Shown: one piece after another, positions 16,375 to 33,839 of the stretch
Layout of the letters: each line of letters starts with the position of its first letter
How positions within the stretch are numbered: position 1 is the first letter of the stretch
Assembly: GCA_012965955.1 (NCBI GenBank)
Contig: DTRK01000093.1
Coordinates: 1 to 37,063 of the forward strand
Direction: 5' to 3'
DNA length: 37,063 nucleotides
DNA from: Flavobacteriales bacterium
Lineage (GTDB): Bacteria; Bacteroidota; Bacteroidia; NORP154
Notes under the pieces: model-generated
Seen by the model: the letters and a program-made list of their open reading frames with translations, nothing else
Told to the model about the DNA's origin: nothing
Databases searched by the model: none
Translations under genes and position numbers: made by a program

Positions 16375-16405
16375 TTTGCTATATTGATATTTGTGTGTAC
16401 TTTTG
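16375..16405 (+). promoter_or_regulatory. Bacteroidota-type promoter, TTTG-N19-TActTTTG
   Basis: TTTG at 16375-16378, exactly 19 bp, then TACTTTTG at 16398-16405, a full match to the TTTG/TAnnTTTG consensus. Transcription should begin near 16411, giving a ~75-nt leader before the GTG at 16488. It is the clearest promoter in the window and drives the first of three paralogous envelope genes. Confidence 0.8.
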
Positions 16406-16487: not shown

Positions 16488-17477
16488 GTGACCAATTTAC
16501 AGAATATAATAAACGCAACATTTAAAAAGGTAGCAGTGCTATGCCTTTTTACTCTGCTGGCCATGATCGTTGTGGCAGATGATGATTGGAAGATCAAAGT
16601 CAATGGTCGCGTTACAGAAGACAAGGAAAAACTCGAAGGAGCTGTAGTGAGTTTGATTAATAACTCACGATTGATGCAGGAAATTATTACTTCTGGAAAC
16701 GGTAAGTTTGTGTTTGTTCTGAAGCCCGGCAACGATTATTTGATTGAAGTAGCCAAACCAGGTTATGCAAGTAAATCCATTGCATTTTCTACCAAGAACG
16801 TTCCGCAGGAAAATGTACGAGGAGGTTTTCCGGATTTTCCAATTGAAATCGTTTTATATCAGGAAATTGAAGGCGTGAATACTGCTGTCCTCGATAATCC
16901 AGTCGGAAAAATAATATACTCTGCAAGCGCTGATGACTTTACTATAGACATGCAGTATCATAAGTCAGTTAAAGCTGATTTAGCTCGACTTAACAAAGAC
17001 ATGAAGATGGCTCTGGCAAGGGCAAAGAAAGAGCACAGAATGAATGAAGAAGAGCTCGTTGAGAATGACAATAGTTATTACACCACCCCTAATGGCGAAT
17101 CCGGCAACTCGATCATTCCAGAGATTGTTGTGGAGGCCAATAATCTCGTACGCGAAAAATCGGTACAGTGGTCGGATCGTCAGGGCGTGGGTTTATTTAC
17201 TGGTTTAGAACTGCTTGAACAAAAGCGATCGAGGATACGTGAGGAATTAGATTATTTGCCAGCGTCACTCGTCAGTGTTAATACTTACAAAGACGGTGAG
17301 AAAGAGGTTCTTATTCGAATAGTGCACCGTACGGATATTTATACTGAATACAAGCGCGTAATCCAATCATGGGGCCCACGATTCTATTTCAAAGATGATA
17401 TCATCATTACTGAACACTTGTTTCAGCTCGAATCTGACCTGGAGGCTCTTTTAGAGTCTAAGACGTTTAAGTTTTAG
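16488..17477 (+). CDS. Exported paralogue 1: N- and C-terminal domains without TPR-like repeats
   Basis: A 329-residue protein of a family I cannot name. It starts at GTG 16488 (an in-frame TAA lies 15 bp upstream) with a hydrophobic signal segment at ~13-30. Residues ~31-165 form a carboxypeptidase-regulatory-like beta-sandwich: WKIKVNGRVTEDKEKLEGAVV, NGKFVFVLKPGNDYLIEVAKPGY, FSTKNVPQENV, FPIEIVLYQEIEG. A ~90-residue charged linker follows, then a C-terminal domain (~265-325) with VLIRIVHRTDIYTEYKRVIQSWGPRFYFKDD. Both end domains recur in the next two genes. Envelope or periplasmic location is inferred from the signal segment; a scaffold or surface-attachment role would be speculation. Confidence 0.85.
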   Translation: MTNLQNIINATFKKVAVLCLFTLLAMIVVADDDWKIKVNGRVTEDKEKLEGAVVSLINNSRLMQEIITSGNGKFVFVLKPGNDYLIEVAKPGYASKSIAFSTKNVPQENVRGGFPDFPIEIVLYQEIEGVNTAVLDNPVGKIIYSASADDFTIDMQYHKSVKADLARLNKDMKMALARAKKEHRMNEEELVENDNSYYTTPNGESGNSIIPEIVVEANNLVREKSVQWSDRQGVGLFTGLELLEQKRSRIREELDYLPASLVSVNTYKDGEKEVLIRIVHRTDIYTEYKRVIQSWGPRFYFKDDIIITEHLFQLESDLEALLESKTFKF

Positions 17478-17637
17478 TTCTATTCTATACTCATTGCGGC
17501 TCTTACCCACTTCCCTTCTGATTATTTCAGGCGCTATTTTTTTATAATTTCGTAGCTTAGCATCTTGCTTTATTGGCAATGTTTGTGTTGTCAAATGGCA
17601 CCCTTAACATACAGATACGGCTTTGGCTCAGTTTTGG

Positions 17638-20574
17638 ATGGATATTTTTGTGAAAAAAGCACTGAATTTGCATCGTTACAATACCGTGAGGTCCCTGTTC
17701 ATTATACTGACGCTAGTTATCGCTACAGGATTATGTAGCGCTCAGGGCACCTGGACCCTGGTTATTGATGGGCGTGTAATGGAAGGTTCCAGGAAGCTCG
17801 ATAAAGCTATGATTACTCTTACCAAGAACGGTGTTTTCGACAAGAAAACGCGCACTGCTTCTAACGGCAAATTCTCTCTTGTCCTGCAACCTGACAATGA
17901 CTACATAATAGATATCTCCAAGAACGGGTATGTTTCTAAGTTAATTAGTGTCTCTACAAAGGGGGTTCCTGAGGATAAGGTGGGAAAGGGATTTCCGGCT
18001 TTCCCAATTGAGATTGGGATATTCAAAGAAATGCAAGAATTAGACACGGAAATCCTGAAGAAACCGATAGGCAAGATAATGTACTACGAAAAGGATGACA
18101 ACTTTAATTATGATAAGAGCTATGTTAAACAAGTAAAGGCCAAGCTGGACAAACTGGCAAAAGAAGCTGAAAAGCTTACCATTGAGAAAGAAGCAGAGGC
18201 AGCGGCCAGGGCCAAGGCTGAAGCAGAGGCAGTCGCCAAAGCCAAGGCTGAAGCAGAGGCATCCGCCAAAGCCAAGGCTGAAGCAGAGGCAGCCGCTAGG
18301 GCCAAGGCAGAAGCAGAGGCATCCGCCAAAGCCAAGGCAGAAGCAGAGGCATCCGCCAAAGCCAAGGCAGAAGCAGAGGCAGCCGCCAAAGCCAAGGCAG
18401 AAGCAGAAGCAGCGGCCAGGGCCAAGGCAGAGGCAGAGGCATCCGCCAAAGCTAAGGCAGAAGCAGAGGCATCCGCCAAAGCCAAGGCAGAAGCAGAGGC
18501 ATCCGCCAAAGCCAAGGCAGAAGCAGAGGCAGCCGCCAAAGCCAAGGCAGAAGCGCGGGCTGTGGCAGAGGCTAAGAAGAATGCGGCCCTGGGAAAAAGC
18601 TATAATGCTGCGATATCTGAAGGTGATATAGCCCTGGGAAAGAAAGATTATGACTACGCTATCAATATGTATAAGAAGGCACTAGGGTTAAAGCCATCTG
18701 AATCGTATCCGAAAGACAAAATAGAGGAGATAGAGAAGGCTATACAAAAGGCGGCCAGGCAAAAGGCTATTACTGAAGCCAAACAAAGAGAGGTGAGTCA
18801 ACGCTACGACGCCTTGATTGGGGATGCTGATAAAGCAATGAAAAGTGGAGATTACACGAAAGCAAAGTCTGAATACACCGAAGCAGCCAAGATACTACCC
18901 GAAGAAGAGTATCCCAAAAAACAACTCGCCATTGCTGAAAAGAAACTCAGAGAAATTGAAGAGGCAAATTTGGCTGCAGCGGCAGAAGCGAAGAGAAAAG
19001 CCGAAGAAGCTGCCAAAGCGAAGGCGGATGCTGAGACGAAAGCCGCTGCGGAATCAGAAGCGAAGAGAAAAGCTGAGGAGGAAGCAGCCACAAAAGCCGC
19101 CAATCAGAAAAAAATTGATGATGCTTACAATGCAGCGGTGGCATTGGGAAATAAATATCTAAAATCGGAGAAGTACAATGAGGCAATTGCTGCTTATCAG
19201 GAGGCAAAATCGGTGAAACCTTCAGAATCTTATCCCCAGACTAAGATAGCAGCGATAGACGCCTTACTGGCCGCAGATGAAGCGGCAAGACTAGATGCAG
19301 AAAACCGAAATGCGGAAATAGAGAAGAAGTACAAATCTGCTGTGGCAAATGCGGATATGTCAATGAAATTCAAAAAGTATGGTGAGGCAAAAACATTCTA
19401 CAAAGAGGCAGCAGGTATTAAACCTTCTGAGGCCTATCCGAAGGATAAGCTAAAGGAGATTGAGGATATTGAGATAGCAGCCAGGGATGCCGAGATGGCT
19501 GTTGTTGGGAAGAAATATGATGATGTAATATCAGCTGCGGACCTCTCCTTTCAGGGTGGAAATTATGGCGAGGCAAAAAAGAAATATGAAGAGGCCTCAG
19601 TGCTGCAGCCAGATAAAACCTACCCAAAAGAGAAGATTACTGAGCTAGAGGGATTGATTGCGGCAGCGGCAAAAAGCGAAGCAGAAGCAGCAAGAATCGC
19701 CAGGCAACGAGACGAAAAATACAGGACAGCGATTACAAAAGCAGATGATGCTATGGCGACTAAAAACCTGGATGCTGCAAGAAGCGGTTATGAAGAGGCC
19801 TTAGGCATCAAGCCTGATGAGGTATATCCAAAAAATAGGATTGCCGCGATTGACAAACAAATTAAGGATGCTCGATTGGCGAAAGAAGCAGCTGCTAAAG
19901 CTAAACTTGACGCTGAGGCCAAAGCAAAAGCAGATGCCGAGGCAGAAGCCAAGGCAGCAGCAGATGCTGAGGCCAAGAGAAAGGCTGAAGAATTAGCTGC
20001 GAGGTTAAAGGCAGAAGCGGATGCTAAAGCCAAGGTAGATGCAGAAGCAAAGAGACTAGCTGAACAGGCAGCCGCGGCCGAAGCCAAAAGAAAAACCGAT
20101 GAAGAGGCTGCAAGGCTAAAAGCAGAAGCTGACGCTAAGGCCAAAGCGGAGGCCGATGCAAAGGCCAAGGCAGATGCAGCCAGAAGAGCTGAAGCTTTGA
20201 GGAAACTACGTGAGCAAAAAGAGAAAGACAGGTTAGCAGAGATTGAGAAGGCAAAAACAGATAAAGCATCCATTGAGCTGGAAGCTAGCGAAAGAGCCAG
20301 GCATATTCGTCAAATGCGGGAAGAGGCTCACAAAGGAATGACTGAAGAAGAACAGCAGCGTTATTTAGCAGAGGTTGCCCTCGAGTATCCCCCGGGATTA
20401 ACGGAGGAACGCTATATGGATGCTAAGAAGCAGGTAACTATACGTATTGTAGTCAAAGATGGGCATGCCGCCATGTTTAAGAAAGTGATACAGCCCTGGG
20501 GCCAGACCTTCTATTTTAAAAATGGCATGAATACCACCAAATACCTCTGGGAATCAGAATCAACCCCAGATTAA
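17638..20574 (+). CDS. Exported paralogue 2: long Ala/Lys/Glu helix plus six TPR-like repeats
   Basis: A 978-residue protein. The ATG at 17638 is preferred to a TTG at 17623; the signal peptide ends near LCSAQ (~residue 36). The same N-terminal domain as its neighbours follows (WTLVIDGRVMEGSRKLDKAM, NGKFSLVLQPDNDYIIDI, FPIEIGIFKEM). Residues 186-305 are twelve 10-residue Ala/Lys/Glu repeats, a probable long single helix or coiled coil. Six ~47-residue TPR-like repeats lie between ~320 and ~750, each ending in KPxExYPKxKIxxIE, broken by one more charged helix; a second Ala/Lys/Glu-rich stretch reaches ~870. The C-terminal domain holds IRIVVKDGHAAMFKKVIQPWGQTFYFKNG. Likely an extended periplasmic or cell-surface rod. 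Function unknown. Confidence 0.88.
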   Translation: MDIFVKKALNLHRYNTVRSLFIILTLVIATGLCSAQGTWTLVIDGRVMEGSRKLDKAMITLTKNGVFDKKTRTASNGKFSLVLQPDNDYIIDISKNGYVSKLISVSTKGVPEDKVGKGFPAFPIEIGIFKEMQELDTEILKKPIGKIMYYEKDDNFNYDKSYVKQVKAKLDKLAKEAEKLTIEKEAEAAARAKAEAEAVAKAKAEAEASAKAKAEAEAAARAKAEAEASAKAKAEAEASAKAKAEAEAAAKAKAEAEAAARAKAEAEASAKAKAEAEASAKAKAEAEASAKAKAEAEAAAKAKAEARAVAEAKKNAALGKSYNAAISEGDIALGKKDYDYAINMYKKALGLKPSESYPKDKIEEIEKAIQKAARQKAITEAKQREVSQRYDALIGDADKAMKSGDYTKAKSEYTEAAKILPEEEYPKKQLAIAEKKLREIEEANLAAAAEAKRKAEEAAKAKADAETKAAAESEAKRKAEEEAATKAANQKKIDDAYNAAVALGNKYLKSEKYNEAIAAYQEAKSVKPSESYPQTKIAAIDALLAADEAARLDAENRNAEIEKKYKSAVANADMSMKFKKYGEAKTFYKEAAGIKPSEAYPKDKLKEIEDIEIAARDAEMAVVGKKYDDVISAADLSFQGGNYGEAKKKYEEASVLQPDKTYPKEKITELEGLIAAAAKSEAEAARIARQRDEKYRTAITKADDAMATKNLDAARSGYEEALGIKPDEVYPKNRIAAIDKQIKDARLAKEAAAKAKLDAEAKAKADAEAEAKAAADAEAKRKAEELAARLKAEADAKAKVDAEAKRLAEQAAAAEAKRKTDEEAARLKAEADAKAKAEADAKAKADAARRAEALRKLREQKEKDRLAEIEKAKTDKASIELEASERARHIRQMREEAHKGMTEEEQQRYLAEVALEYPPGLTEERYMDAKKQVTIRIVVKDGHAAMFKKVIQPWGQTFYFKNGMNTTKYLWESESTPD
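18193..18552 (+). repeat. 30-bp tandem repeat, twelve copies, in frame
   Basis: Twelve consecutive 30-bp units, each reading EA(A/S/V)A(K/R)AKAEA. Copies differ by a few bases, mostly in the residue 3 and 5 codons. Units are whole codons, so gain or loss changes rod length without a frameshift. The antisense frame is also open but only as a low-complexity shadow. Confidence 0.95.
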
Positions 20575-20741
20575 AGCTACCCCATTTCAATTTCGTCTGA
20601 CGATATTAACAATTTACCTGAGTAGTTTAGGTACTTGTCGTATATTGGGTGCACTACTTGCGTTGATTATGTAAATTTAGATGTTGAATCAATGGATTGG
20701 AACGATTTTAGCCGCTAGATTGTGCGAATAGATTAGGAAGG

Positions 20742-22169
20742 ATGTTTCCTCAACGGCATATACTGCTTACAATTAGCTGCTTGTTGCTGAGTGCGTTTGC
20801 CTATGCTCAAGAAGACTGGACGGTGATGCTCAATGGTAAAGTAACTGAAGATGACAAACCATTGGGGCGAGTAGTGCTTATCCTCAAAAAGAATCGGGAA
20901 GAGGTGCAAAAGTTGTTTACTGCACCTAACGGAAAGTTCATCCTTGAACTTGATTCCGACAATGAATATCAACTCTACTTTACCAAAAAAGGGTATGTGA
21001 CTAAATTCATAGAATTTAATACCAAAAATGTTCCAGAGGATAAAGAGGCAGGTCTTTATAGTGAATTTATCTTTGAATTAGACCTGTTTAAGGAAATGGA
21101 AGGTTTGAATACCTCTATTTTAGAGTTTCCAGTTTTTAAAGTAAAGTACTATCCTGGTCTTCAGAACCTGGATTACGATAAAAGGCACGAAGCAAAAATA
21201 AGATCACGCCTGAACTTATTGTTGAAAGACTATAGGGCGATGAAAGAGCGAGAGCTTAGAGATATTGAGAAGGCCGAAGAACTAGCAGACCAACAAGAAA
21301 AGAATCAGGCATATAACAAGCAAATTGCTATCGCTGATGGTTTGGCCAAGAAGAAGAAGTACGAAGAGGCCCAGGATGCTTATGAAATAGCACTCGAAAT
21401 AAAACCCAAAGCTCCATTTCCTAAAGATAAGATTGTGGCAATAGAGAAGCTAATCAAAAAGCGGGATGCTGAGAAAAAACTGTCAAAGGAGATGGAGGAG
21501 CGTTACGCGATATTGCTCAAATCTGCGGATGAAGCATTCAATAATGAAAAATATGCCTCCGCCAGAAGCTTATACAAGCGCGCAGCATTGATAGCTCCTG
21601 AAAGAACCTACCCTATAGATCGAATTTCCAGAGTAGAGGACGAGTTGTCATTGACCAGGAGTGCTATTCCCTTTAATAAAGTTACTGATCAAAAGTATGA
21701 TCTCATTATTTCACGGGCAGATAACGAATACATGGGTGAGGACTATGTGAGGGCAAGATATAGTTACTTATCAGCCCTGAGGGTCAAGCCCGGTGCCCAG
21801 CACCCTAAGTCGCGGATACTTGAAATAGATAGCATTGTTACTGCCACCAAGGTACAGATGACGGAAGCTGGACCAGGCAGTAAGACGAAAAAGCCCAAGG
21901 TCAAGAAGGGTGCTAAAGGCAAGACGCCACCGGCTAAAACTGAAGAGGACGGGCTCAATGAGTATCTCATCACATTGGCTGCGAAATATGATGAAGGCAT
22001 TACTGAGGAGATCGAAGTTACCGGTAGTAAAAAAGTAACAAGAATTATTGTAGTCAAAGATGGCAAGGCCAATGAATACAAAAAGGAAGTATTTTCATGG
22101 GCGACTTATTATAAAAAGAACAACAAGACCATTCCCAGATACGTGTTTGAAAATGAAACCAAACAATAA
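20742..22169 (+). CDS. Exported paralogue 3: three TPR-like repeats
   Basis: A 475-residue protein, third member of the tandem family. ATG 20742 is preceded by aggaagg, one of the better ribosome-binding sites here. The signal peptide ends at FAYAQ (residue ~22). The N-terminal domain (WTVMLNGKVTEDDKPLGRVV, NGKFILELDSDNEYQLYFTKKGY, TKNVPEDKEAG) is clearly homologous to the two preceding genes. Three TPR-like repeats span ~182-365, with the characteristic KPKAPFPKDKIVAIEK ending. A Lys/Pro-rich low-complexity stretch (~375-400) separates them from the shared C-terminal domain (TRIIVVKDGKANEYKKEVFSWATYYKKN). Intergenic gaps of ~160 bp between the three genes suggest each may have its own promoter; none is exact for this one. 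Confidence 0.87.
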   Translation: MFPQRHILLTISCLLLSAFAYAQEDWTVMLNGKVTEDDKPLGRVVLILKKNREEVQKLFTAPNGKFILELDSDNEYQLYFTKKGYVTKFIEFNTKNVPEDKEAGLYSEFIFELDLFKEMEGLNTSILEFPVFKVKYYPGLQNLDYDKRHEAKIRSRLNLLLKDYRAMKERELRDIEKAEELADQQEKNQAYNKQIAIADGLAKKKKYEEAQDAYEIALEIKPKAPFPKDKIVAIEKLIKKRDAEKKLSKEMEERYAILLKSADEAFNNEKYASARSLYKRAALIAPERTYPIDRISRVEDELSLTRSAIPFNKVTDQKYDLIISRADNEYMGEDYVRARYSYLSALRVKPGAQHPKSRILEIDSIVTATKVQMTEAGPGSKTKKPKVKKGAKGKTPPAKTEEDGLNEYLITLAAKYDEGITEEIEVTGSKKVTRIIVVKDGKANEYKKEVFSWATYYKKNNKTIPRYVFENETKQ

Positions 22170-30363: not shown

Positions 30364-31854
30364 ATGGTTGTCAAGTACACAATTCTTTTCCTATACTTCC
30401 TTATCCTATTCCTGATAGGTGTATTCGCTTCCCGAAAAATAAAAGGGCTTGAAGATTACTACGTCGGAGGGAAGAAGCTAGGATATTGGGTAGTAGCGTT
30501 CTCGGCACGGGCCACTGGGGAATCTGCCTGGCTCTTACTGGGCCTGACGGGGCTTGGAGCCATGATAGGTGTGTCAGCCTTCTGGGTAGTTGCAGGTGAG
30601 TTATTAGGAGTGGGAGTAGCATGGTTCCTTATGGCAAGGCCATTCAAGGCACAAACTGATGCGTACGGTTCCATTACAATTCCGGATTACCTGGTCTCTA
30701 GATTTCAGTCATCCAGCCATCTGCTTCGCATTGTGGCCGCAGCGACCTTAACTGTATTCGTCACCATTTACGTGAGTGCCCAGATTGATGCTACTGGTAC
30801 CGCATTTGAGAATTTCTTAGGGTGGAATTACTATGTAGGGGTTTTTGTGGGTTTTGGAATCGTGGTGATGTACATTCTCTCAGGTGGTTTTGTTGCTGTA
30901 GCCTGGTCAGATCTCTTTCAGGGACTCCTTATGCTGATGGGTTTGGTACTCCTGCCCATCGTAGCTTTCCTCTATCTTGGGCCGGAAGCAGATGTAATGG
31001 GCACCTTGGAAAGAGTGGATCCCGGCCTGGTCGATATTTGGGGCAGTGGAGGCTTCTCTGCCTACAACGTGGTCACCGTTATTGGTTTGGCCCTGATAGG
31101 CCTGGGCTTCATGGGGTCGCCTCAATTATTTGTAAGGTTCATGTCGATCAAGGATGACAATGAGATTTTAAAGGGGAGATGGGTGGCGATTGTATTTACC
31201 TTGCTTACAGATTCTGCAGCAGTACTCATTGGGATGCTCGGAAGGTATTTGTTCACTGAATCCGGGCAGCTACCTGAGGATATCCTCGGCAATGGGGGAC
31301 AGCAAGTACTGCCGATGTTAGTTGACCTTGTCATGCCTTCATTAATTGTGGCCATGTACATTGCTGTGGTGCTGGCAGCCATTATGTCAACTATCGATTC
31401 ACTTCTTGTAGTGGCCTCTTCTGCCATTACGCGCGACTTCTATCAGCAGGTTTACAACCCAGAGCTGGACAATGATAAAATGGCGGGTATATCCAGAATC
31501 ATCACCGTGATTCTGGCGCTGGTAGCACTGGGGCTTGCACTAGCTGTAGCCACAATTTCACCGACACGTACAATATTCTGGTTTGTCATATTTGGATGGT
31601 CGGGTATAGCCGCTACGTTCTGCCCGGTGATGATATTGTCTCTTTTTTGGAAAGGGTATACCGAGAAGGGGGCCCTGGCATCAATGGTGACAGGTTTTAT
31701 CTCTGTTCCCGTCTTTAAGTTTCTGGCTCCACAAATTCCTGAATATGGCGTGTATTTCGATAAGCTGGCTGAACTCCCGCCATCCTTTGCGATTGCTTTG
31801 CTGTTTGGTATATTTGTTAGTAAGCTGGATAGAAAGGGAAACCTCAGAACTTGA
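30364..31854 (+). CDS. SSS-family sodium:solute symporter (PutP-like)
   Basis: A 496-residue membrane protein with ~13 hydrophobic helices. It starts with an N-terminal ILFLYFLILFLIGVFASRKIKGLEDYYVGGKKL typical of the family, and FSARATGESAWLLLG corresponds to the Na+/substrate region near TM2 of PutP. Later SGGFVAVAWSDLFQGLLMLMG and STIDSLLVVASSAITRDFYQ match the SSS signature. The substrate cannot be told; the location suggests a pyrimidine-derived compound such as beta-alanine or an intermediate. It follows the possible terminator, and its TGA overlaps the next gene's TTG (TTGA). Confidence 0.92.
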   Translation: MVVKYTILFLYFLILFLIGVFASRKIKGLEDYYVGGKKLGYWVVAFSARATGESAWLLLGLTGLGAMIGVSAFWVVAGELLGVGVAWFLMARPFKAQTDAYGSITIPDYLVSRFQSSSHLLRIVAAATLTVFVTIYVSAQIDATGTAFENFLGWNYYVGVFVGFGIVVMYILSGGFVAVAWSDLFQGLLMLMGLVLLPIVAFLYLGPEADVMGTLERVDPGLVDIWGSGGFSAYNVVTVIGLALIGLGFMGSPQLFVRFMSIKDDNEILKGRWVAIVFTLLTDSAAVLIGMLGRYLFTESGQLPEDILGNGGQQVLPMLVDLVMPSLIVAMYIAVVLAAIMSTIDSLLVVASSAITRDFYQQVYNPELDNDKMAGISRIITVILALVALGLALAVATISPTRTIFWFVIFGWSGIAATFCPVMILSLFWKGYTEKGALASMVTGFISVPVFKFLAPQIPEYGVYFDKLAELPPSFAIALLFGIFVSKLDRKGNLRT

Positions 31855-33839
31855 ATATTCTTTCAAAAATATATGCTGAAATTGGGCTTGCTGCCTTGGT
31901 AGTGGTGCTTTCTTGTGGTTCGCTTCAGGCGCAGCCGGAGAATGATGATATGGCCAATGCCCTGGAGATTGAGGATCTGTTGCATTGGTGTTCACCATTG
32001 GCGGGTTTGAGTAACAAAGGAGCCACTGAGGACGGTGCCAGGATTGGCTGTATGACCAATGACGGCCCCAATTACAATGTATGGTTCAAGTTCAGGGCCA
32101 GTACGGACAACGTGCAAGTTGTGGTGAGTACCGGAGATGTGTTTGGGACAATGAAGTTTGCCAACGTTGCCCTCATTGATGAGTATGGCACACAGCTAGC
32201 CTGTGATGAGTACAATGATGAGTATGGCGATGTGGGATTGACCTATACAAACTTGAACTTAGGCAACTGGTATTTCATTCAGGTTGACCATGCGAACACC
32301 TCTTCTTATCCAGGCACATTCACCCTGTGCGTGACAGATGAGCTGGGCTATGATTACCAGGATGGTGCCAAAGAGTTGATGAACTTGTCAAACTGGTGCT
32401 CCCGGGATGCGGAGTTCTCCACCTGGAAAGGATCTCCTGATGGAGGCACTGGGACCTGCCTCAAAACGGGACCGAATTTCAATAAGTGGTTCAAGTTCTA
32501 CGCCCGTTCGGAAGAGATTGAAGTTAATGTGATCACGGGAGGGGAAAAGGGATCCTGCCAGTTTCCCGTGGTAATGTTGTGGGACGCCAACTTTAATGAG
32601 GTGGCTTGTGGTAAATGGAAGTCAGAGTCTGCTGATGAGTGCAGCCTGACAGGTACCGGGCTAAAGGAGAAGAACTGGTATTACATCTCCGTTGATCATA
32701 TATTAAATGATAAATATCCAGGTTCATTTACGCTGTGCCTTGATAAGGGAGGAACGGTTGAAACTGTGGGAATTAAGGAGAAAATTTCAATCCGTGGCAG
32801 GCTGTTGTACAACTTGTTTGAACCGGTTAACAGTAAGATCACCTTGCTAGGAGAGAATGATGAGGTGTTGACAAAAACAGAAACTGACAACACGGGGAAA
32901 TTTAGATTTGATGATTTGCGCCCTGAAGTTGATTATACAGTGGTGGTAGAGGATTATAGCCCGGGACAGGACGTGTCAATTGTGCAAACAAATTACAAGG
33001 GGCGAATAATAAAGAAAGCGCAAAGGCAAGAGAAAAACATATTCAGGTTTCATATGTTACCTCCTGATTGCTATGGCCTGGGATTACTCAGCTGCGAAGA
33101 TCCGGGATTGCTGCCCGACGCAGGTACAGTAGGTTTATTGGGAATTGTAACTGACAAAGACGACCCTTTAGGCGGTAAGGAGAATGTTAACATTGGGCTA
33201 TATAAGGACGCGGAAACGTTGTTAGAGGAAACCCAGACCGACCAAAGCGGTAGTTTTAAGTTCAATAACCTTCCTTATGACGCTGGCTATATGATCAGGG
33301 TAGATAATATCTCAGATGACCTATATGTAGAGATGCTCATGGTAAATGATGAAGGCAACTCAATCATGGCTACAACCATGGAGAACCTTGACGAAAATGG
33401 GTTTTTCAACTTCCAGGCACTGCCGTATATGCAAGTCTATTTGAGCAAGCTGAAAATTGATGATTTGGCTGACCTAACGCTTGTTGACCTGACCATTGGA
33501 ACGCCCATTAAGTTGAATAATGTCTATTTCCTATTGGGGAAATATGATCTTCTGCCATCGTCAAGTGCTGAATTGGACAAGCTCGTAGGATTGCTGAACG
33601 ACAATGAGGATGTTAAAATTGAGGTTGCAGGGCATACAGACAACAGTGGTACCATGAAATTTAATATTCTGCTCTCGGCAAATCGGGCAAAAGCAGTTAT
33701 GGACTATTTAATTGCTAAAGGAATTTCACCTTCACGACTCACCTATAAAGGTTATGGCAGCAAAAAGCCAATATCTCGGAATCACAGTGAAGCTGAGCGC
33801 AAGAAAGACAGACGCGTAGAATTCACAATTGCGGAATAA
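31851..33839 (+). CDS. OmpA-family envelope protein with PPC-like and carboxypeptidase-regulatory-like modules
   Basis: A 662-residue exported protein. The only possible start is a TTG at 31851 overlapping the symporter stop, since an in-frame TAG lies just upstream; a signal peptide ends near SLQAQ. Two related ~125-residue domains follow, each with NxxWFKFxA, a GNWYFIQVDH or KNWYYISVDH core and YPGxFTLCV; these resemble bacterial pre-peptidase domains. Two ~90-residue beta-sandwich repeats come next (ISIRGRLLYNLFEPVNSKITLL; GIVTDKDDPLGGKENVNIGLY). The C-terminal ~110 residues are an OmpA peptidoglycan-binding domain (VAGHTDNSGTMKFNILLSANRA, YGSKKPI, RRVEFTI). It would anchor the outer membrane or surface modules to the wall. 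Confidence 0.9.
   Translation: MNILSKIYAEIGLAALVVVLSCGSLQAQPENDDMANALEIEDLLHWCSPLAGLSNKGATEDGARIGCMTNDGPNYNVWFKFRASTDNVQVVVSTGDVFGTMKFANVALIDEYGTQLACDEYNDEYGDVGLTYTNLNLGNWYFIQVDHANTSSYPGTFTLCVTDELGYDYQDGAKELMNLSNWCSRDAEFSTWKGSPDGGTGTCLKTGPNFNKWFKFYARSEEIEVNVITGGEKGSCQFPVVMLWDANFNEVACGKWKSESADECSLTGTGLKEKNWYYISVDHILNDKYPGSFTLCLDKGGTVETVGIKEKISIRGRLLYNLFEPVNSKITLLGENDEVLTKTETDNTGKFRFDDLRPEVDYTVVVEDYSPGQDVSIVQTNYKGRIIKKAQRQEKNIFRFHMLPPDCYGLGLLSCEDPGLLPDAGTVGLLGIVTDKDDPLGGKENVNIGLYKDAETLLEETQTDQSGSFKFNNLPYDAGYMIRVDNISDDLYVEMLMVNDEGNSIMATTMENLDENGFFNFQALPYMQVYLSKLKIDDLADLTLVDLTIGTPIKLNNVYFLLGKYDLLPSSSAELDKLVGLLNDNEDVKIEVAGHTDNSGTMKFNILLSANRAKAVMDYLIAKGISPSRLTYKGYGSKKPISRNHSEAERKKDRRVEFTIAE

Follow-up and report, generated by a model that had tools for sequence, protein, structure and literature searches.

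How three adjacent genes come to encode exported proteins that share both ends and differ in what lies between them, and what such proteins might do, is the question raised by a trio on the plus strand (16488-22169) of the 37,063-nucleotide stretch of Flavobacteriales DNA analysed here, hereafter the window. A first-pass annotation had described tandem paralogous exported proteins with common end domains and 0, 6 and 3 TPR-like repeats, and had proposed that they form a graded-length set. Our data bear out the described architecture and place it in a different setting: the three genes belong to a large family of exported proteins, so far uncatalogued, in environmental Bacteroidia. The host assembly is 3.1 Mb in 316 contigs and ~92% complete.

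Gene 1 (16488..17477), defined by its open reading frame, domain profiles and an AF2 model, encodes a predicted exported protein of 329 aa in which an N-domain (16596..16991; profile score 165 bits) and a C-domain (17301..17435; 63 bits) flank a 43-residue helix and no TPR unit. Gene 2 (17623..20574; the ATG at 17638 is a likelier start than 17623) encodes a predicted exported protein of 983 aa. Its N-domain (17764..18156; 161 bits) is followed by a minisatellite of 12.2 copies of 30 bp (18189..18554), which encodes an EAEAAAKAKA-type single-helix stalk, by six TPR-like units (18601..18744, 74.8 bits; 18805..18948, 70.0 bits; 19126..19269, 70.0 bits; 19330..19470, 77.8 bits; 19516..19659, 74.7 bits; 19720..19863, 77.4 bits), by a second K/A/E-rich helical stretch recognised in the sequence by its composition and short tandem repeats (19870..20337, boundaries approximate), and by the C-domain (20425..20562, or 20362-20571 with the upstream strand; 70 bits). 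Gene 3 (20742..22169; 475 aa, predicted to be exported) combines an N-domain (20829..21215; 146 bits), three TPR-like units (21312..21455, 67.9 bits; 21504..21647, 70.4 bits; 21696..21839, 73.0 bits) and a C-domain (22029..22160; 60 bits).

The common ends withstand comparison with shuffled sequences (500 shuffles): pairwise alignments of the three N-domains give z = 38-50 and those of the C-domains z = 7.6-22.6, and even for the weakest C-domain pair, that of genes 1 and 3, the score of 56 exceeds the highest shuffled score, 42. Profiles of the two domains match genes 1-3 and a fourth paralogue in the same genome; because these profiles were trained on the same four paralogues, independent support comes from other genomes, in which the two domains are again found together. 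The N-domain, previously described as beta-sandwich-like, is now identified as a CarboxypepD_reg-like domain (PF13620), at a score above the Pfam cut-off of 32.3 bits in gene 1 alone (35.4 bits, 1.4e-8) and under it in genes 2 and 3 (21.7 and 20.0 bits). The AF2 model of gene 1 (51 sequences, mean pLDDT 80) consists of a transthyretin (TTR)-like sandwich, a helix at residues 155-197, a disordered link and the C-domain, and its leading PDB matches are TTR-like, prealbumin-like folds, which fit the N-domain. In fold and sequence the N-domain thus resembles CarboxypepD_reg/transthyretin-like domains (PF13620, PF13715); it differs from them in a conserved extension (LF...EG...PVGKI.Y....FDYD..Y) and in its frequent pairing with the C-domain.

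The C-domain, ~46-70 residues long, is confidently predicted to be a separate fold. It is modelled with a pLDDT of ~90-95 across most of its length in gene 1, and the last 70 aa of gene 2 modelled alone (71 sequences, mean pLDDT 84) give a beta-beta-beta-beta-alpha arrangement. Searches of Pfam and NCBIfam with 48 members found no relative of this domain, nor did a comparison of its profile with PDB sequences, and a fold search against the PDB gave nothing better than E 0.045. Resemblances to an SMC head or a PUR-like sheet, all at E 0.045 or worse, were therefore set aside as likeness of topology only, and hits to DUF4138 in 4 of the 48 members (best 0.025) were taken as chance.

As for the middle, a profile of the repeat unit finds exactly the 0, 6 and 3 copies described (68-78 bits each). 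The unit is a genuine TPR, as had been suspected, with Pfam matches above cut-off in gene 2 (TPR_8, 6.3e-9; TPR_1, 9.3e-9) and one under it in gene 3 (TPR_2, 22.6 bits; cut-off 27); its length is 48 residues and not ~47. In the host genome, genes 2 and 3 share the unit with just one further gene (47-78 bits), and since the next matches lie at ~20 bits or less, it appears to be a specific unit and not a generic TPR. Protein length is not set by the number of TPR units alone: gene 2 is lengthened as well by its K/A/E helices, which the first-pass annotation did not mention and of which the minisatellite encodes one.

Beyond the host, the N-domain profile matches 23 and the C-domain profile 21 of 30 relative genomes. 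Counting all loci examined in the class Bacteroidia, both ends occur together in 136 distinct proteins. The middles of these two-ended proteins range from 82 to 1505 aa (median 319) and consist of TPR units and/or long K/A/E helices; 93 proteins have no TPR unit, 37 have at least two, and the maximum is 21. In the loci read, the N-domain stands at the start and the C-domain always at the extreme C-terminus. A broader profile detected the C-domain in 134 of 295 genomes of an even, class-wide sample of Bacteroidia, and an earlier profile in 3 of 297 genomes of a phylum sample, two figures that are not directly comparable given that sample and profile both differ. By a simple scan, 142 of 148 family members have a signal-peptide-like N-terminus without a lipobox and five have a lipobox-like motif; near the N-domain, 103 of the 148 have an AQ motif of the kind seen at cleaved signal peptides. 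Three exported coiled-coil giants of 1920-3124 aa (L215:1525-10896, L216:2141-8878 and L217:5152-10911) carry the C-domain at their end and lack the N-domain. What is new here is a two-ended, length-variable exported family with an uncatalogued C-terminal domain. No description of it was found in a literature search that was mostly blind to subscription journals, and the family has probably been overlooked because nearly all named bearer records are metagenome-assembled genomes of uncultured organisms, namely Flavobacteriales or other Bacteroidetes.

The conserved surroundings of one paralogue suggest an origin without repeats. The fourth paralogue of the host (L010:6553-8214) has both end domains, a purely K/A/E helical middle and no TPR unit, and such a helix-only core paralogue is oriented divergently to a set of three small genes for exported proteins (c2, c0, which has TPRs, and c1). 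Across 77 named loci all three of these neighbours are present in 65 of 81 testable cases and at least two in 79 of 81. From this conserved divergent four-gene cluster we infer that the repeat-free core paralogue is the ancestral family member. The small exported genes of the cluster, at L010:8375-9769 in the host and at the 77 named loci, encode a 140-aa protein, a 189-aa TPR protein and a 131-aa Cys-rich protein; the 140-aa and 131-aa proteins have no Pfam match.

The trio itself is conserved within the host's own family only. There it recurs in full, in the same order and between the same flanking genes, in two genomes (G002, with 0/7/3 units, and G003, with 0/7/2), and G006 and G005 have the long and the mid-length gene as a pair at contig ends. 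Elsewhere, tandem pairs of a short and a long gene recur at other loci, and outside the host's family most members are single. The expectation of conserved, multi-copy tandem clustering, which we followed by searching with profiles of the end domains, is thus borne out inside this family and in the recurring short-plus-long pairs, and fails elsewhere, where members are mostly dispersed. In the tree the repeat-free gene forms a clade (100/98; five rows, one from another family), as does the long gene (98/93); in the other genus, the mid-length genes group with the long gene and not with gene 3 of the window. The proposal that the trio is a special set of three graded steps is not supported by these observations: the family has more than 100 mostly dispersed members whose middles measure 82-1505 aa, C-domain proteins reach 3124 aa, the number of units drifts (6 or 7; 3 or 2), and the mid-length gene of the other genus does not pair with gene 3 in the tree. 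Near the trio in G003 lies a 378-aa N-domain protein (L073:13895-15028) that lacks the C-domain and has a hydrophobic segment close to the C-terminus.

A link to a known system is suggested by the one other gene of the host genome that carries the specific unit. This gene (L011:5138-6889; G000:C2) adjoins a CHU_C adhesin and encodes a PorP_SprF barrel (2.1e-69) fused to three TPR-like units and a terminal SPOR-like domain (0.0024, slightly short of the Pfam cut-off); the same fusion with detectable units recurs in G002, G003, G005, G006 and G013. The fusion and its relatives (f1) share the unit with the trio at 47-72 bits and would extend as a single chain from a barrel in the outer membrane towards peptidoglycan, with the difference that they have the barrel and the SPOR-like domain where the trio has the N- and C-domains. 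At the level of whole genomes, PorP/SprF genes are more numerous in lineages that have the C-domain than in those that lack it (median 12 versus 5, p = 5e-4; 15 versus 8, p = 3e-6, in first-look candidate counts over 72 families), and so are CHU_C genes (43 versus 22, p = 0.0014); SusD goes in the opposite direction and genome size shows no difference (p = 0.21). These associations are correlational, with relatedness controlled solely by taking one genome per family. By a rough estimate, CHU_C adhesins in the neighbourhood of the family (cluster c3, nine loci) are not above chance. PorP is present in all 30 nearest relatives, those that lack the family included, so the family is neither a core component of the type IX secretion system (T9SS) nor essential to it. 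Further PorP/SprF barrels, at L204 and L197, appear from their sequence ends to have a carboxypeptidase-regulatory-like or OmpA-like C-terminal extension.

Combining these data, we tentatively favor the possibility that the proteins are soluble envelope scaffolds, probably periplasmic, that are linked to the anchoring of type-B adhesins; periplasmic location, scaffold role and adhesin link are each what we infer from the domains and their distribution. In this model, each protein would begin with a signal peptide and a transthyretin-like N-domain and end in a beta-beta-beta-beta-alpha cap; the spacer between them, free to vary in length, would be built of TPR units, of single alpha-helix segments or of both. 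The end domains would bind fixed envelope partners, or one another in oligomers, and the middle would set the reach and offer TPR surfaces. The likeliest context would be the periplasmic scaffolding of the type IX secretion/type-B adhesin (PorP/SprF-CHU_C) apparatus, and where lineages have many PorP/SprF adhesin anchors, the family would then be a concrete candidate for what underlies them. Counting against the model, none of the trio's immediate neighbours (an FAD oxidoreductase, a TauE-like permease, a glycosyltransferase and MiaE) shows an evident connection to the T9SS, and the conserved neighbours of the core paralogue are uncharacterised. A bolder version, which we regard as improbable, is that the family forms a new system of exported filaments or scaffolds in environmental Bacteroidia: the two end domains would join monomers whose spacers range from fewer than 100 to more than 1000 residues, and would help to anchor or route type-B adhesins.

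The scaffold would act in the manner of PorE, a periplasmic protein associated with the outer membrane in the T9SS of P. gingivalis, which has TPR, propeller, carboxypeptidase-regulatory and peptidoglycan-binding domains and bridges PorP, itself bound to a type-B adhesin, to peptidoglycan (PMC9143113). Like PorE, the trio combine TPRs with a carboxypeptidase-regulatory-like domain (CRD) in an exported protein, and a weak local NCBIfam similarity to PorE is confined to the trio's CRD (0.016). However, the NCBIfam T9SS_PorE model scores 13.4 bits on the trio against a cut-off of 600, the domain order differs, and the trio lack a lipobox, a beta-propeller (none by Pfam in the three proteins or in the model of gene 1) and an OmpA domain (none by Pfam in the three proteins, a CHU_0125_OmpA match being confined to the CRD); conversely, the uncatalogued C-domain of the trio is absent from PorE.

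The same architecture could serve outside the cell. The invariable position of the C-domain at the extreme C-terminus would suit a new sorting or attachment signal, with the variable middle projecting like an adhesin stalk from surface or extracellular fibres, and the exported coiled-coil giants of 1900-3124 aa without an N-domain would be too long for the periplasm; the abundance of surface adhesins in family-bearing lineages points the same way. Known T9SS C-terminal sorting domains are beta-sandwiches, from which the predicted fold of the C-domain differs, and no Pfam or NCBIfam model of a type A or type B sorting domain matches the C-termini of the trio or of 48 family members. Moreover, a sorting signal is expected on many unrelated architectures, whereas 27 of 33 C-domain proteins with an intact start (one locus set) also have the N-domain, the giants being among the remainder. 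On balance we consider surface fibres unlikely, if still credible. The giants nonetheless restrict any model: fully extended, C-domain proteins of 3124 aa would span hundreds of nm, so at least some would need to run parallel to the envelope or be extracellular. End domains that stay constant around a helical middle free to expand, these same giants and the recurrence of tandem long-plus-short pairs would also be in agreement with a filament or cytoskeleton parallel to the envelope, in which the end domains drive head-to-tail or side-by-side assembly in the periplasm and so stiffen the envelope or form a track. Given that no filament former matches in sequence or structure and that TPR stretches more typically serve as platforms for binding, we regard this as improbable.

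Two readings in which the proteins act across the periplasm fare worse. That 0, 6 and 3 units are set on common ends might suggest a radial ruler in which the three proteins fix three distances between outer membrane and peptidoglycan. Unit counts shift to 7 and 2 in close relatives, however, 93 of the 136 members have no unit, and the minisatellite adds length of its own; an alpha-helix rises 0.15 nm per residue, and because the longest members (more than 3000 residues) would at that rise far exceed the periplasm, a ruler is very improbable. The long K/A/E-rich helix of gene 2 resembles that of TolA and matches the TolA model (3.8e-9, 36.3 bits), as a TolA/TonB-like force transducer might; yet the match lies in a compositionally biased helix and falls short of the cut-off of the NCBIfam model tolA_full (59.45), the AQ motif in 103 of the 148 members would suit a cleaved signal peptide, a folded domain stands at the N-terminus in place of an inner-membrane anchor, and the C-domain is unrelated to that of TolA, no TonB or TolA C-domain being among the PDB fold matches listed. 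We therefore give a force transducer hardly any credence. Soluble scaffolding of the envelope, linked to PorP/SprF and type-B adhesins, remains the reading we tentatively favor.

No terminator-like site was found between the genes of the trio. Upstream of them lies a promoter-like site of the Bacteroidota type, TTG-N19-TAnnTTTG (16376..16405, plus strand, no mismatch). The window has two such exact matches and, with those of one or two mismatches included, 175 in all versus 161 by chance; because this total is near chance, the site is no more than suggestive. Further along the window (31851-33836) is a gene for an exported OmpA-family protein with CarboxypepD_reg-like repeats and a distant likeness to CHU_0125 and PorE.
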